A stretch of DNA of 44,974 bases from Rhodoferax sp. OV413 (GTDB lineage: Bacteria > Pseudomonadota > Gammaproteobacteria > Burkholderiales > Burkholderiaceae_C). Where the stretch lies: the NCBI GenBank assembly GCA_945861785.1, contig CAMAWD010000049.1:1-44974 (forward strand), written 5' to 3'. A program made the translations under genes and the position numbers. The notes under the pieces were generated by a model. That model was not told the origin of the DNA, did not search any database, and was given only the letters and a program-made list of their open reading frames with translations. Numbering within the stretch: the first letter of the stretch is position 1; the number at the start of each line of letters is the position of its first letter. This document shows positions 23,892 to 44,773 of the stretch, in pieces.

Positions 23892-24686
23892 ATGTCCAGG
23901 AACGGCCCCGTCGCGCTGTGCTTCAATGCATTGGTCATCGCGTTCATGCTGGCCCCGCTGCTGATCGTCTGCATCATCGCGTTCACCCCTGAAAACACCC
24001 TGACGTTTCCCACCACCCGGTTGTCGTTGCGCTGGTTCAAGGCGGTTTTTGCGCACCCCGACTTCGTCCAGTCGTTCTGGAACAGCCTGTGGCTGGCCTT
24101 GTCGTCGGCCTCACTGGCCACCCTGATCGCGGTGCCGGCTGGCCTGGCCATCACGCGCTACGAATTCGCTGGGCGCGACGCCCTGAATGCGCTGTTCCTG
24201 TCGCCGCTGATCGTTCCACACCTGGTGCTGGGGGTGGCGATGTTGCGCCTGTTCTCGCTGATGGGTGCTGCGGGCAGCTTCTTCTGGCTGGTGCTGGCCC
24301 ATGTCGTCATCGTGACGCCGTATGTGCTGCGGCTTGTCGTGGCCGCGGCTGCGGGGTTCGACCGCAGCTGTGAACATGCGGCCCTGTCCCTGGGTGCCGG
24401 CAACTTCACGGTGTTCCGGCGGATCACGCTGCCGATGATCCTGCCAGGGGTCACGGGGGGCTGGCTGCTGGCCTTCATCAACAGCTTCGACGAGGTAACG
24501 ATGTCGATTTTCGTGACTGCGCCGTCGACCGTCACGCTGCCGGTGCGCATGTACATGTACGCCACCGAATCGATCGATCCGCTCATGGCCGCAGCGTCGG
24601 CGCTGATGGTGGCTTTCACAGCGGCGGTCATGGTGGTGCTGGACCGCCTGTATGGCCTGGACCGCATCCTGGTGGGCAGCAAATGA
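23892..24686 (+). CDS. ABC transporter permease (PotC-like)
   Basis: A 264-residue inner-membrane permease, six membrane segments. The coupling loop EHAALSLGAGNFTVFRRITL lies near residues 160-180 and the conserved SFDEVTMSIFV follows near 200. It pairs with the PotB-like permease, with which it shares operon and spacing of seven bases. Its ATGA stop overlap with the iron-sulfur subunit gene couples transport and the first catabolic enzyme. Confidence 0.93.
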   Translation: MSRNGPVALCFNALVIAFMLAPLLIVCIIAFTPENTLTFPTTRLSLRWFKAVFAHPDFVQSFWNSLWLALSSASLATLIAVPAGLAITRYEFAGRDALNALFLSPLIVPHLVLGVAMLRLFSLMGAAGSFFWLVLAHVVIVTPYVLRLVVAAAAGFDRSCEHAALSLGAGNFTVFRRITLPMILPGVTGGWLLAFINSFDEVTMSIFVTAPSTVTLPVRMYMYATESIDPLMAAASALMVAFTAAVMVVLDRLYGLDRILVGSK

Positions 24687-25006
24687 CCCAGCGCGAAGTC
24701 GGCGGGTCGCCCACAGCCCCACAGTTCGTGCGCCTGGCAGAAACACGGCGCGAGCGTGTCGGCTTCATGCTCGACGGTGCTGCGTGCGAGGGCCTGGCCG
24801 GCGACACGGTCCTGACCGCCATACTGACCCACGGCGCAACACTGCGGCACACCGAATTCAGCGGTGAAGCGCGGGCCGGTTTTTGTCTGATGGGCGCCTG
24901 CCAGGACTGCTGGGTGTTGACGGAAAGTGGCCAGCGCCTGCGCGCCTGCTCGACCTTCATCGCGCCGGACATGCGCCTGCTGACGCGCCAGGGCACTTCG
25001 CCATGA
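24683..25006 (+). CDS. [2Fe-2S] subunit of HcnABC-like amine dehydrogenase
   Basis: A 107-residue ferredoxin-like protein of the Fer2_4 type. Cysteines C68, C73, C76 and C89 have the C-x4-C-x2-C...C spacing of a plant-type [2Fe-2S] cluster. In HcnABC (glycine to cyanide), the octopine/nopaline oxidases and the heterotrimeric D-hydroxyproline dehydrogenase, a small subunit like this passes electrons from the FAD subunits. It overlaps both its upstream permease gene and the downstream FAD subunit by ATGA, so the three are made together. No signal peptide; the complex is probably at the inner face of the membrane. Confidence 0.9.
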   Translation: MTQREVGGSPTAPQFVRLAETRRERVGFMLDGAACEGLAGDTVLTAILTHGATLRHTEFSGEARAGFCLMGACQDCWVLTESGQRLRACSTFIAPDMRLLTRQGTSP

Positions 25007-26406
25007 CAACGTCGGTACGACCGGTCATCGTCGGCGCCGGGCCAGCCGGCATCCGTGCCGCACAGACGCTGGTGGCACAGGGTCTGCGCCCGGTCGTGAT
25101 CGACGAAGCGCCGCGCTGGGGCGGCCAGATCTACCGCCAGCCACCGGCACATTTCGAGCGCTCGAAGAAGACACTGTACGGCTTCGAGGCAGGCCGGGCC
25201 GACGCGGTTCACAGCGCCATGGCGCAACTGCTGCGCCAGGTCGACTACCGCCCCGACACCCTGGCCTGGAACGCCGAAGGCGGCCAGCTCGACCTGCTGC
25301 ACCAGGCGCAAACATCGACCATCGCGTACTCCCACCTGGTTGTTGCCACCGGCGCGACCGACCGGGTGCTGCCGCTCCCCGGCTGGACCACACCGGGCGT
25401 TTTCACGCTCGGCGGCGCCCAGGTCGCGCTCAAGTTCCAGGGCTGCGCCATTGGCCGGCGCGTCGTGTTCCTGGGCACCGGCCCGCTGCTGTACCTGATC
25501 GCCTACCAGTACACACGGGCCGGCGCAGATGTGGCAGCGGTGCTCGACACGGCACACCTGTGCGACCAGCTGGCGGCCCTGCCGGCGCTCATGGCACAAC
25601 CGGCGCTGCTGGCCAAGGGCATGTACTACGTGGGCTGGCTGCGCGCCCATGGCGTGCCATTGCACGGAGGTGTGCGACCACTTCGCATCGTGGGCGACAC
25701 ACGCGTCGAAGCGCTGGCCTGGGCCGACAAGCGCGGCGAGCACCTGCTGCCCTGTGATGCGGTGGGCATGGGGTACGCGCTGCGCAGCGAGACCCAGCTG
25801 GCAGATATCCTGGGTTGCCGCTTCCAATTCGACACCCTGCAGCGTGCCTGGTTGCCCGAACGCGACCCGGCCGGGCGCTCCAGCGTGGCCGGCGTCTACC
25901 TGGCTGGTGATGGCGCAGGCACCATGGGCGCCGACGCCGCCGAATGGGCCGGAGAACGCGCGGCATGGGCTCTGCTGGCCGATGCCGGGCGCCCTGCGGG
26001 CGCGACCAACGCGACACGGATCGCCGCGCTCGATGCCCGGCTGGCGCGCAGCACGCGATTTCGGGCCGGCCTGGAGCGCGCTTTCCCGTTCCCGCTCCAA
26101 TGGGCGGCGCAGGCACCCGACGAACTCGTCGTATGCCGTTGTGAAGAGGTCACGGCAGGCGAACTGCGGCAAACCGCCACCGTGACCGGCGCCACCGATA
26201 TCAACGTCGTCAAGGCCGCGTGCCGTGTCGGCATGGGCCGCTGCCAGGGGCGCATGTGCGCCGCCGCGGCCAGCGAGATCCTGGCGCATTGCACCGGCCT
26301 GCCGCTGCCGGCTGTGGGCCGGCTGCGCGGCCAGGCCCCTGTGAAGCCGATTCCCTTCATGGTCGCCCAAGCCGCCGCCGCACCGCATCAAGGGGCGCCC
26401 GCATGA
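25003..26406 (+). CDS. FAD/NAD(P)-binding subunit with BFD-like [2Fe-2S] domain (HcnB-like)
   Basis: A 467-residue flavoprotein. The Rossmann motif GAGPAG is at residues 11-16, a second nucleotide site (FLGTGPLLYL) near 155-165 and the FAD-end motif VYLAGDGAGTMGADAA near 305-320. The C-terminal part has C378-x-C380 and C414-x4-C419 (CRCEE...CQGRMC), a BFD-like iron-sulfur domain. This is the HcnB/OoxA/hydroxyproline dehydrogenase alpha type, which accepts electrons from the catalytic subunit. The start overlaps the previous stop (ATGA). Its own stop overlaps the first of two tandem micro-ORFs. Confidence 0.9.
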   Translation: MTTSVRPVIVGAGPAGIRAAQTLVAQGLRPVVIDEAPRWGGQIYRQPPAHFERSKKTLYGFEAGRADAVHSAMAQLLRQVDYRPDTLAWNAEGGQLDLLHQAQTSTIAYSHLVVATGATDRVLPLPGWTTPGVFTLGGAQVALKFQGCAIGRRVVFLGTGPLLYLIAYQYTRAGADVAAVLDTAHLCDQLAALPALMAQPALLAKGMYYVGWLRAHGVPLHGGVRPLRIVGDTRVEALAWADKRGEHLLPCDAVGMGYALRSETQLADILGCRFQFDTLQRAWLPERDPAGRSSVAGVYLAGDGAGTMGADAAEWAGERAAWALLADAGRPAGATNATRIAALDARLARSTRFRAGLERAFPFPLQWAAQAPDELVVCRCEEVTAGELRQTATVTGATDINVVKAACRVGMGRCQGRMCAAAASEILAHCTGLPLPAVGRLRGQAPVKPIPFMVAQAAAAPHQGAPA

Positions 26407-26468
26407 GCGCCGCGCCGGGCCGCCCCAAGCAAGCTCGAACCGCAGTGCGCAGCATGGAGGTTGCCTGA
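26403..26468 (+). CDS. Micro-ORF A, 21 codons, translational-coupling repeat
   Basis: The frame starts with ATGAGC overlapping the stop of the FAD subunit and encodes 21 residues with the core GRPKQARTAVRSMEVA. Its TGA overlaps the ATG of micro-ORF B (TGATG). GGAGG at 26456-26460, inside its codons 18-20, sits seven bases before that ATG. DNA and peptide closely resemble copy B next to it and copy C at 43002-43067. I do not know a named family. The peptide may be unimportant, the value lying in keeping ribosomes moving between genes. Confidence 0.6.
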   Translation: MSAAPGRPKQARTAVRSMEVA

Positions 26469-26530
26469 TGAGCGCCGCACGGCCGCCCGAAGGCGCTCGT
26501 GCCGAAGTGCGCAGCACGGAGGTTGCCTGA
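26468..26530 (+). CDS. Micro-ORF B, 20 codons, tandem copy of A
   Basis: Twenty codons with the core RPPEGARAEVRSTEVA, starting in the TGATG overlap with copy A and ending in a TGATG overlap with the DAO-type dehydrogenase gene. The same GGAGGTTGCCTGATG end (GGAGG seven bases before the ATG) provides the ribosome-binding site of the next gene. It differs from A by a three-base gap and scattered substitutions, so the tandem is a duplication that has diverged, not a recent copy error. Expression is implied by the unbroken coupling but not shown. Confidence 0.6.
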   Translation: MSAARPPEGARAEVRSTEVA

Positions 26531-27726
26531 TGACCAACCAGCTGCAGACCGACGTGACCATCATCGGCGGCGGCATCGTGGGTGCATCGGCGGCACTGGC
26601 GCTGCGCAAGATGGGATTGGCGGTTGTGCTGCTGGAGCGTGACCAATGCGGCACACGTTCGAGTGGCGTCAACTACGGTGGTGTGCGCCGGCAGGGCCGC
26701 CCGCTGTCGCAATTGCCACTGGCCCAGCGCGCCCACGCTATCTGGGGCAGCTTGCCGGAACTGATCGGCATCGATGGCGAATACCTGCGTTCGGGACACC
26801 TCAAGATCGCACGCAGCGAGGCGGATATGGCCTCGCTCGAGAGTTACCGCGCACGCAGCGAGGGTTTCGGGATGGGCCTGCAACTGCTCGGCACGGCCAC
26901 CCTGCGCGCGCGTTTCCCGTGGCTGGGCGAACGGGCGCTGGGTGGTTCGTGGTGCCCGCAGGACGGCCACGCCAACCCCCGCCTGGTGTCGCCCGCGTTC
27001 GCACGTGCGGCCGTGCGCGCCGGTGCGGACGTCCGCGAGGCCTGTCGTGTGGAGCACCTGCTGCACGACGGCCGGCAATTCGTGGTGGCGGCTGGCAACG
27101 GCCTGGAGGTTCACTCGCGCGTGTTGCTCAACTGCGCCGGCGCCTGGGCGGGTGCCATCGCCGCACAATTCGGCGAACCCGTCCCGATGGTGTCTTCGCA
27201 CCCGGTGATGGCGGTCACGGAGCCGCTGCCCATGTTCATGACACTGAGTCTGGGGGTCGAGGGTGGTGGCATCTACGCGCGCCAGGCACCCCGCGGCAAC
27301 TGCGTCATAGGAGGGTCCCAGGGGTATGCGCTGGACGCCGACCGCGCGCGCCCCGGCCGGGACGCCATCACGCTGGTGCTGCAGCGCACGGTGGAACTGC
27401 TGCCCAAACTGCGCCACGCCCACATCATCCGGACCTGGAGCGGCACCGAAGGTTACCTGCCCGACCGCGAACCGGTGATCGGGCCCAGCAGCACCACACC
27501 CGGCCTGTTCCACGGCTTCGGATTCGCCGGCGCGGGTTTCCAGATCGGGCCGGCTGTTGGTGCGGTGCTGGCAGAACTCGTGCGTGACGGCGCCAGCACG
27601 ACGCCAATTGGCCCTTTTTCTATTTCCCGCTACGCGAACCGGGCGCCGGCGGAATCGGCTGCCGGGCAGTTGTCTGCCCGGCATGCCGTTCTTTCACCCG
27701 TCATGTCGACACTACCAACCACCTGA
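26530..27726 (+). CDS. DAO-type FAD-dependent amino/imino acid dehydrogenase, catalytic subunit (HcnC-like)
   Basis: A 398-residue D-amino-acid-oxidase-fold flavoprotein. GGGIVG at 13-18 binds FAD; the C-terminal FAD motif GLFHGFGFAGAGFQIGPAVG begins near 320. Together with the Fer2 and HcnB-like subunits it should oxidise the C-N bond of an amine or imino acid. The adjacent ALDH7-type dehydrogenase suggests pipecolate as substrate, giving piperideine-6-carboxylate. Related trimers oxidise glycine, octopine or D-hydroxyproline, so this is inference. Family proteins usually end near SISRY (about residue 363); here about 35 more residues follow, crossing a 9-bp perfect hairpin, so the original stop may have been lost. 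Confidence 0.87.
   Translation: MTNQLQTDVTIIGGGIVGASAALALRKMGLAVVLLERDQCGTRSSGVNYGGVRRQGRPLSQLPLAQRAHAIWGSLPELIGIDGEYLRSGHLKIARSEADMASLESYRARSEGFGMGLQLLGTATLRARFPWLGERALGGSWCPQDGHANPRLVSPAFARAAVRAGADVREACRVEHLLHDGRQFVVAAGNGLEVHSRVLLNCAGAWAGAIAAQFGEPVPMVSSHPVMAVTEPLPMFMTLSLGVEGGGIYARQAPRGNCVIGGSQGYALDADRARPGRDAITLVLQRTVELLPKLRHAHIIRTWSGTEGYLPDREPVIGPSSTTPGLFHGFGFAGAGFQIGPAVGAVLAELVRDGASTTPIGPFSISRYANRAPAESAAGQLSARHAVLSPVMSTLPTT
27661..27682 (+). promoter_or_regulatory. Perfect hairpin just upstream of the binding-protein gene
   Basis: GCCGGGCAG and its complement CTGCCCGGC enclose a TTGT loop. The stem lies in the extended 3' end of the dehydrogenase gene, 54 bases before the binding-protein ATG. 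No T-run follows, so it is not a typical terminator. It could act as a processing or stability element that sets the binding-protein mRNA level apart; this is inference. Confidence 0.5.
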
Positions 27727-42534: not shown

Positions 42535-43005
42535 TTGGAGACTTCAGCGAACAACGGCGCAAATCCATTGCTGGGCACTTGGCACCTCGTGCGTTGGGAC
42601 ATCAATTACAGCGATGGGCGACCGCCCAGCCTGCCGTATGGCGAAGGCGCGACCGGCATGATCTTGTACAGCGCCGACGGCCACATGAGTGCCTGCATCG
42701 CGCGCGCAGGGCGCAGCAAGTTGTCGAGCGACAGCGTGCGCAGTGCTCCGGTGCCGGAGCGGTTGGCGGCGTTCGAGAGCTATTTTCAGTACGCCGGCCC
42801 CTATGAAATCCGCGGTGCGCCAGGCCAGCAGGTGGTGGCGCACACCGTCACCCAGTCGCTCAATCCCAATTTTGTTGGCACCAGTCAGGTCCGCAACATG
42901 GCATTTTCCGAGGATGGCCGTCAGTTGACCCTGTCCGCGTCCGACAGCGTACCTGGCACCACGGTCGCGCGGCACCACCGGCTTGTCTGGAGGCGCGGAA
43001 CATGA
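42535..43005 (+). CDS. Lipocalin-like domain protein
   Basis: A 156-residue protein. LLGTWHLVRWDINYSDGR near the start and GEGATGMILYSADGHMSA further on fit the Lipocalin_5 family, small beta-barrel proteins often next to catabolic genes. No signal peptide is seen. TTG 42535 is chosen because GGAGG lies five bases before it. Its stop overlaps the micro-ORF C start (ATGA). Its role with PaaN is not known; binding of an aromatic intermediate is possible. Confidence 0.8.
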   Translation: METSANNGANPLLGTWHLVRWDINYSDGRPPSLPYGEGATGMILYSADGHMSACIARAGRSKLSSDSVRSAPVPERLAAFESYFQYAGPYEIRGAPGQQVVAHTVTQSLNPNFVGTSQVRNMAFSEDGRQLTLSASDSVPGTTVARHHRLVWRRGT

Positions 43006-43067
43006 GCGGCGTCGGGCCGCGCCCAAGGGCGAATTCCGCCGTGCGAAGCCCGGAGCTTGCCGGATGA
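43002..43067 (+). CDS. Micro-ORF C, 21 codons, same family as A and B
   Basis: ATG 43002 overlaps the lipocalin-like stop and the frame encodes 21 residues with the core GPRPRANSAVRSPELAG. Its TGA overlaps the ATG of paaN. GGAG inside codons 17-19 is eight bases before that ATG. Matching residues with copy A are RP(K/R), AVRS and E(V/L)A; the DNA also matches at ATGAGC, GGGCCGC, GTGCG and GGAG-TTGCC. It is 16.5 kb from copies A and B and in an unrelated operon. Confidence 0.6.
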   Translation: MSGVGPRPRANSAVRSPELAG

Positions 43068-44773
43068 ACCTTTTTGACAAACACCGCACGCGCTTCGAAG
43101 GCGCGCAGGCTGCATGCCGTGAACGCTTCTGCTGGAGCCCGTTCCCGGACATGCCCGCGAAGTACCCCGACTCCGCCCAGGCGCAGGCCCAGGGCCAGGC
43201 CAGGTTCCAGGCCTATTTGGGGCAGCCCTCGGCGCCCCAGCGGTTTGCGCTGGTCCAACCGGGGCAGGTCGGCGAATTGGGCGAAGAGGTATCGCCCTGC
43301 ACGCGCCAGCCCCTGGGTATCCTCTACCCCAAGGCCGATATCGACACGCTTTTCGATGCCGCCACCAGCGCCATCGGTGGCTGGGCCGCGGCCTCCATCG
43401 ACACACGCATCGGCGTGCTGATGGAGGTGGTCGACGTGGTCTACCGCGAGCATCTGTTCGAAATCGCCCAGTCGGTCATGCACACCGCCGGCCAGAGCGC
43501 CAACATGGCGTATGCGGGCTCCGGCGTGAACGCGCTCGACCGTGCCATCGAGGCACTGGTTTATGCCGACAAAGCAATGCGCGCGGTAGTGCCCAATGCG
43601 CGCTGGGAGCGCCAGTTCGGCCCCTCGAAGATCGTGCTCGACAAAACCTACCGGCTGGTGCCGCGCGGCGTGGCGGTGTGTTTCTCCTGCGCGAGTTTCC
43701 CCACCTGGAACGCCTGGCCCTCCATGATGGCCAGCCTGGCCACCGGCAACGCGGTGATCGTCAAGCCGCACCCTGCCACCGTGCTGCCAATGGCCATCTC
43801 GGTGCGGGTGTTCCGCCAGGTACTGAGCGCAGCCGGCTTCGACCCCAATCTGGTGACGCTGGCAGTGGACAGCAGCAACGAGCCGATCGGAAAATTGCTG
43901 GTCAAACACCCGCGCACGGCAATCGTCGACTTCACCGGCAGCGTCCAATTCGGCCAATGGGTGGAGCGCAACGCGCACCCGGCCCTGTGCTTCACGGAGA
44001 CCGCCGGTTGCAACACGGTGGTGCTGGAATCCTGCCACGACCTCGACGCCACCCTGCGCAGCCTGGCCACCACCTTGTGCATGTTCAGCGCCCAGATGTG
44101 CACCAGCCCGCAAAACATCTACCTTCCCCGCCAGGGTGTCCACACACCCCAGGGCACGGTGCCACCTGACGAAGTGGCGCGGCGCCTGGCCGATGCGGTT
44201 GCAGCCCTGACCAGCGATCCGAAAAAGGCCGCGATGATCCTGGCCACGATCCAGTCCGACCAGACCCTTGCGCTGCTGCAGCAGATGCAGACTGCGGGCG
44301 AACAACGCGGCCAGGTGCTGCTGCAGCCCCGCCCCTATGCCCATCCGGAGTTCCCGGCTGCGCGTACCAGCACACCACTCATGCTGCAGGTGGGCAAGAC
44401 CGAACGCGACCTGTACGGCGAGGAGCGCTTCGGCCCGATCAGCTTCATGATCACCTGCGAGGACGGCCCCGATGCCTTGCACCAGGCCACGACCGATGTC
44501 AAACAGTTCGGCGGTCTGACCGCGTTTCTCTACTCGACCGACGAGGCCTTCATCGCCCAGGCCGAGGCCGCCTATTCCCAGGCCGGCGCACAACTCACCA
44601 CCAACCTCACCGGTGCGATGCCGCTGAACTTTGCCGCCGCCTACAGCGATTACCACGTCACCGGCCTGAACCCCGCCGGCAACGCCAGCCTGACCGACCT
44701 GGCCTTTGTGGCCAGCCGCTTTCGCATCACCCAATCGCGCCGGCCGGCTCCTGTTGCCGCTACAGCCAGCTGA
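43064..44773 (+). CDS. paaN: Phenylacetic acid degradation protein PaaN (aldehyde dehydrogenase family)
   Basis: A 569-residue aldehyde dehydrogenase-fold protein. The catalytic cysteine is C346 (FSAQMCTSPQN) and the glutamate E312 (CFTETAGCN). The N-terminus HRTRFEGAQAACRERFCWSP followed by FPDMP is typical of PaaN, which lacks the hydratase domain of PaaZ. PaaN is linked to the ring-opened oxepin-CoA semialdehyde step of phenylacetate or related CoA pathways. No other paa genes are in the window. The start overlaps micro-ORF C. The end at 44773 is followed by about 50 bases and then the right repeat. Confidence 0.92.
   Translation: MNLFDKHRTRFEGAQAACRERFCWSPFPDMPAKYPDSAQAQAQGQARFQAYLGQPSAPQRFALVQPGQVGELGEEVSPCTRQPLGILYPKADIDTLFDAATSAIGGWAAASIDTRIGVLMEVVDVVYREHLFEIAQSVMHTAGQSANMAYAGSGVNALDRAIEALVYADKAMRAVVPNARWERQFGPSKIVLDKTYRLVPRGVAVCFSCASFPTWNAWPSMMASLATGNAVIVKPHPATVLPMAISVRVFRQVLSAAGFDPNLVTLAVDSSNEPIGKLLVKHPRTAIVDFTGSVQFGQWVERNAHPALCFTETAGCNTVVLESCHDLDATLRSLATTLCMFSAQMCTSPQNIYLPRQGVHTPQGTVPPDEVARRLADAVAALTSDPKKAAMILATIQSDQTLALLQQMQTAGEQRGQVLLQPRPYAHPEFPAARTSTPLMLQVGKTERDLYGEERFGPISFMITCEDGPDALHQATTDVKQFGGLTAFLYSTDEAFIAQAEAAYSQAGAQLTTNLTGAMPLNFAAAYSDYHVTGLNPAGNASLTDLAFVASRFRITQSRRPAPVAATAS

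Follow-up and report, generated by a model that had tools for sequence, protein, structure and literature searches.

Tandem units of a dispersed repeat probably form a ribosome hand-over at a start/stop overlap in an hcn-like operon

The joint between an HcnB-like and an HcnC-like gene at positions 26403-26530 of the window (the whole stretch of 44,974 nucleotides that was analysed) probably consists, with a likelihood that we put at about three in four, of a head-to-tail pair of units from a dispersed insertion repeat, acting as a ribosome hand-over at a DTGA overlap. The repeat is real and widespread, and it lives in operon joints. The gap between the two genes is wholly occupied by two micro-ORFs, one of 21 aa and the other of 20 aa, with joints at 26403-26406 (ATGA), 26466-26470 (TGATG) and 26528-26532 (TGATG); the initial annotation had described both frames, these overlaps and the GGAGG 7 bases before each next ATG, and was right to the base. 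Its view that the pair is more than chance was borne out, because a 156-bp query matched 41 places in the host genome (E ≤ 1e-3, query locus included). The features of the window are listed with their matches to R1, a covariance model built from 41 units; H1 and H2 are the two hairpins described below.

25003..26406, + strand: HcnB-like FAD/NAD-binding subunit, 467 aa (Pfam Pyr_redox_2 and Fer2_BFD); its TGA lies inside the first ATGA
26403..26467, + strand: repeat unit A, with micro-ORF start and Shine-Dalgarno site (R1 match 26403-26467, 73.3 bits)
26403-26468, + strand: unit A micro-ORF, MSAAPGRPKQARTAVRSMEVA, 21 aa and a stop (26466-26468)
26445..26455, + strand: unit A hairpin H2, GTGC-GCA-GCAT (from the sequence and covariation across 41 units)
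26456..26460, + strand: unit A Shine-Dalgarno site GGAGG, 7 nt 5' of the ATG at 26468
26468..26529, + strand: repeat unit B, of a subfamily other than that of A (R1 match 26468-26532, 75.8 bits)
26468-26530, + strand: unit B micro-ORF, MSAARPPEGARAEVRSTEVA, 20 aa and a stop (26528-26530), with start and Shine-Dalgarno site present
26470..26498, + strand: unit B hairpin H1, GAGCGCC ... GGCGCTC with an inner 3-bp stem (from the fold; pairs in a subset of the family)
26507..26517, + strand: unit B hairpin H2, GTGC-GCA-GCAC (from the fold and covariation)
26518..26522, + strand: unit B Shine-Dalgarno site GGAGG, 7 nt 5' of the HcnC-like start
26530..27726, + strand: HcnC-like FAD-dependent oxidoreductase, 398 aa (Pfam DAO); tblastn orthologs align from residue 1
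43002..43063, + strand: third repeat unit in the window (R1 match 43002-43066, 56.4 bits)

The third unit sits between a lipocalin-like ORF (42535-43005), whose stop falls within the first ATGA of the unit, and an aldehyde dehydrogenase-like ORF (43064-44773; Pfam). The minus strand opposite most of the hcn-like operon also carries a 1018-codon open frame (24628-27684), which is probably a side effect of high-G+C codon usage.

R1 had at least 87 matches in the host genome (E ≤ 0.01; up to 150 candidates scored). At E ≤ 0.001, matches were found in all seven genomes of the genus, host included, and in 12 of 17 genomes from other genera of the family, and none of 16 genomes from other families of the order was matched (up to 130 candidates per genome in this set). 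A wider sample of the Comamonadaceae-like family yielded matches in 121 of 200 genomes, representing 90 of 141 genera, with none in the remaining 79 at the depth searched (up to 26 candidates each). The host is taken as Comamonadaceae-like, near Rhodoferax, on the strength of its best HcnC relatives. Class-wide (up to 28 candidates per genome), 3 of 185 genomes matched: besides the host, these were a second genome of its family and a weakly matching one from outside it. The family of Zwartia gave matches in 20 of 101 genomes (E ≤ 0.01; up to 51 candidates per genome). Among 17 named genomes (up to 150 candidates scored per genome; per-genome counts are lower bounds throughout), matches numbered at least 21 in Variovorax EL159, 14 in Root411 and 12 in CF313, at least 17 in Rhodoferax STA_46, 10 in Ramlibacter WS9 and 4 in Acidovorax sic0104, and at least 3 in a Polaromonas MAG and 2 in R. 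ferrireducens OTU1. None was found in the other nine (Zwartia, Rhizobacter OV335, Acidovorax CF316, Rhodoferax OV413, Limnohabitans, Comamonas lk, Chelatococcus and two Pseudomonas), and a phage origin was rejected because phage records gave no match. Many of the matches listed for one genome, G122, have identical scores (76.9 and 75.2 bits), suggesting that near-identical copies spread there in a recent burst. The initial annotation had described the units between dehydrogenase subunits; the family is dispersed and not peculiar to dehydrogenase operons.

We analysed the position of units in 175 loci chosen among the strongest matches (the window, L009-L102 and L183-L262, leaving out the hcn relatives L103-L182 and later loci), counting as a gene any open frame of 60 codons or more unless we cite Pfam or the annotation of a record. 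These loci held 246 units, or 197 distinct units after removal of duplicates, in 147 arrays (106 single, 33 double, 7 triple and 1 quadruple); unit length was mostly 59-66 bp, within a range of 57-69 bp. The longest upstream frame stopped at position +1 of the unit's DTGA in 109/147 arrays, compared with 65/276 control ATGAGC sites outside units on both strands of the same loci (Fisher p about 6e-24, relatedness ignored), and 38 arrays had no long upstream frame ending at the unit. Downstream, a frame of at least 60 codons began just 3' of the Shine-Dalgarno site in 98/147 arrays; 75 arrays combined both features and 15 had neither. Five plasmid records matched, and in two of the four examined, Variovorax paradoxus VAI-C and Diaphorobacter JS3051 pDCB2, annotated genes end and begin at the unit edges: the upstream CDS ends in the unit's first four bases and the downstream CDS begins 65 bases past the unit start. 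The Variovorax PBL-E5 record has no same-strand CDS directly upstream of its unit, and the unit site in the fourth record is without annotation. Units thus lie between coupled genes of other genomes, as the initial annotation had suggested looking for.

The same joints also occur without the unit. In 80 HcnC-ortholog loci, an HMM search (E ≤ 1e-3) detected units at two. In Variovorax CF313 the unit (L140) is at the hcnB/hcnC joint, where Root411 reads straight across ATGA; in Rhodoferax STA_46 it lies between the 2Fe-2S (hcnA-like) and FAD (hcnB-like) genes (L109:1035-1100, judged from translations). A short unit in Zwartia's family (L352:1501-1560) is also between hcnA-like and hcnB-like genes. 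Because units occupy the hcnA-like/hcnB-like joint in two further lineages, the hcn operon type appears to have been hit repeatedly. Of the 78 relatives whose hcnB/hcnC joint could be tested, 75 show a bare −4 DTGA overlap there, the exceptions being CF313 and two loci with other spacing by the criterion used; in G006, the only congener to match the HcnC start, the joint is a bare TGATG. The initial annotation had named, as grounds for abandoning its view, absence of the unit from coupled genes elsewhere or its presence as an ordinary piece of a longer coding region in homologous operons, and the survey turned up neither.

Twelve unit-bearing junctions were found in just one of CF313 and Root411, and we searched for their joined flanks in six Variovorax genomes, CF313 and Root411 among them (the alignments to unit-free sites drew on loci L317-L346 only). 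A unit-free ortholog, colinear to the start codon, was found for 11 of the 12 (L312 has none), reading ATGA at the insertion point in nine cases and ATGG, which is not DTGA, in two. At L310 the other strain aligns without a gap over 180 bases at 98%; the L304 join carries 4 extra bases, as a TTGA in the unit tail was taken as the start by the script. Sites shared by CF313 and Root411 differ in unit number, with one unit versus two at L267/L306 and at L284/L303. Since almost all hcn relatives have the bare overlap, we read the unit-bearing hcn sites as insertions, and at other sites we infer gain over loss. Both proteins flanking a unit remain intact.

The reading frame of the unit was followed in 137 of the 197 units (of the rest, 23 were without a 5' end, 18 without a recognisable Shine-Dalgarno site and 19 without a start). 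The distance from a unit's first codon to the next start was 59, 60, 62, 63, 65 or 66 in all but four. Divided by three, it left remainder 2 in 97 units, 0 in 37 and 1 in only 3, counts to be read with the shared ancestry of the units in mind. The frame ended in the next start in 95 of the remainder-2 units (75 of ATGA type and 20 of TGATG type), while the 37 remainder-0 units share the frame of the next start, and 35 of them run on into the next gene with no separate stop. Ninety-six of the 137 units were last in their array (30 were internal and 11 not last), and the downstream start of 87 of these 96 was a DTGA. The bases just before the downstream start were mostly of two kinds, ending CCA or CTG and varying by locus.

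The initial annotation had stressed a peptide core, which is not kept across the family; common to the copies are the DNA/RNA structure, the Shine-Dalgarno site and the position at a gene joint. Because peptides differ between subfamilies, it seems that the frame matters and not the peptide. A functional peptide encoded by a locally duplicated micro-ORF would agree with the near absence of remainder 1 (3/137) and with the near-identity of four of nine tandem pairs, but we rejected it as very improbable, as subfamilies use different frames and unrelated peptides whereas the hairpin is kept throughout, and neither window peptide had a match in Pfam.

Duplication was also proposed initially, and it accounts for part of the data. 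Units A and B are 85% alike, with nearest units at other loci 93% and 89% alike; because each copy resembles a unit elsewhere more than its neighbour, stacked insertion or gene conversion fits the window pair better than local duplication. Five of nine adjacent pairs in the host, the window pair included, were less alike than each member was to a unit at another locus, and in the other four the neighbours were most alike and look like duplicates, so that tandem duplication seems to occur alongside stacked insertion or gene conversion.

Directly 5' of the Shine-Dalgarno site lies the covarying hairpin H2, a 4-bp stem of the form N4-GCA-N4'. In the alignment of 41 units (MAFFT, not fitted to structure), H2 was paired in 96.3% of cells, with double changes in 29 cells at three of its four pairs; outer ACC/GGT pairs were paired in 86.2% of cells, with 3 further double-changed cells. 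The whole structure was paired in 92.0% of cells, compared with 80.7% for column shuffles and 23-52% for slid controls. None of 500 shuffles equalled the covariation score, while 33 of 500 equalled the count of pairs with double changes. RNAalifold recovered H2 unaided, and all four of its pairs were present in 122 of 136 units parsed by pattern; under a stricter parse, 73 of 79 units were complete, with 10 distinct stems, against at most 40 in shuffles. The larger 5' hairpin, H1, is not a universal stem: its three variable pairs were complete in 31 of 101 GAGC..GCTC units, exceeding shuffles, and none formed in 43. Single-sequence folding energies of whole units were not exceptional in any of eight sequences, so covariation was the only evidence of structure used. 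A known RNA family was rejected, with no Rfam match over any unit at gathering scores (the best sub-threshold match at the joint, Burkholderiales-2, had 15.2 bits against a gathering score of 67.9; E 5.7).

This anatomy strongly suggests a ribosome hand-over. A unit would arrive at a DTGA start/stop overlap, or at a DTGA start codon, and leave a DTGA on both sides, the first still closing the upstream gene and the second still opening the downstream one. It supplies its own start codon, a short frame usually ending in the next start, a hairpin and then, about 7 nt ahead of the downstream start, a Shine-Dalgarno site. On ending HcnB, a ribosome could restart on the unit, translate 20-21 codons, unfold the hairpin and start again on HcnC, coupling the two genes. 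Part of the Shine-Dalgarno site would lie under the outer pairs, an arrangement that would fit the model of translational coupling by RNA unfolding as outlined in the review PMC12548453. Units can stack because each regenerates its target, and they are presumably still mobile. How they move is a more speculative matter, and no mobilising gene was identified. It is conceivable, though we think it rather unlikely, that an enzyme inserts units at DTGA joints by targeting the termination-reinitiation site, regenerating the target so that operon joints fill with stackable modules; its guide might perhaps be the GCA-loop hairpin, or it might act on the transcript.

Whether the units serve their hosts is a separate matter, and we consider it evenly balanced whether the repeat is simply selfish, inserting at many DTGA sites with only those copies at overlaps or start codons escaping selection, so that frame and Shine-Dalgarno site make the unit tolerable to the host and nothing more. 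The patchiness among close strains, the unconserved peptide and the 79 unit-free genomes among the 200 of the family (at the depth searched) are as expected of such an element; some sites, however, are retained in both CF313 and Root411. This account is compatible with hand-over as the way in which the unit works and disputes only its usefulness. That H2 is instead a cis-regulatory RNA, adjusting the downstream gene as a switch or as a protein site, would suit a covarying hairpin that adjoins the Shine-Dalgarno site, but we hold it improbable given that the neighbour genes seen are unrelated, that the presence of units shifts between close strains and that Rfam offers no match at gathering scores. 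We view with similar doubt the idea that the repeat is REP-like and mobilised by a Y1 (RAYT-type) transposase that recognises the hairpin in single-stranded DNA. The unit is indeed short, dispersed, hairpin-bearing and without its own gene, and the host has two Y1_Tnp matches; across relatives, however, Y1_Tnp (19 of 24) had no visible relation to unit matches, being present without a unit match in G007, G014, G025, G028, G030, G031 and G032, and absent from G006, which has at least 2 unit matches.

Ribosome hand-over by a dispersed repeat would mean that mobile DNA can enter tight operons with neither protein broken, in widespread environmental bacteria. Natural pairs with and without the unit, such as hcnB/hcnC of CF313 and Root411, allow direct tests of termination-reinitiation and subunit ratios. 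Units also account for stray short ORFs at operon joints of these genomes, and those in frame with the next gene offer possible N-terminal extensions there.

REP, ERIC and NEMIS are short, dispersed, structured intergenic repeats without their own gene, as are the units here; they are not known to combine a fixed start/stop register with a coupled mini-frame and a Shine-Dalgarno site. Our literature search, with most subscription papers outside its scope, found no description of the family, a possible exception being BRE, the Beta-proteobacterial repeat element of Bordetella and Comamonadaceae, reported in PMC3110155 with a function unknown to its authors; that paper lists REP, ERIC, NEMIS and similar repeats by name. 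As described there, BRE is likewise short, tandem in variable number and, in some copies, overlaps ORF ends by a few bases, but its full length is 75-91 bp and some copies lie inside genes or between convergent genes. Genomes of Zwartia's family hold units of about 80-84 bp that have the 5' half in common with ours plus an extra hairpin, mostly at DTGA joints, and shorter units occur there too; the longer ones were seen at loci L355-L364 (G282, G312, G286 and G289), several of them tandem. Compared by description, these may be the published BRE. The reported tandem BRE copies beside lexA at Bordetella locus 3 (PMC3110155) served as a landmark, and by it the identification was negative: no unit of about 84 bp was present in 18 loci around lexA matches in 11 genomes of G282's genus, which may not be Bordetella.

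A closely similar named system does exist, although the initial annotation knew of none. By anatomy and position, the closest working analogue is MIRU, the mycobacterial interspersed repetitive units of Supply et al. 1997, as presented in the review PMC12548453. Like MIRUs as described there, the units are inserted at start codons or DTGA overlaps (109/147 arrays; DTGA at 87/96 downstream starts) and carry a small ORF that overlaps the next gene (95/137 units, with a further 35/137 running into it). The units differ in belonging to another phylum, in a length of 57-69 bp and in the covarying GCA-loop hairpin that adjoins the Shine-Dalgarno site. If units do target termination-reinitiation sites, evolution would have produced MIRU-like behaviour on two or more occasions, with operon joints serving mobile DNA as a general niche.
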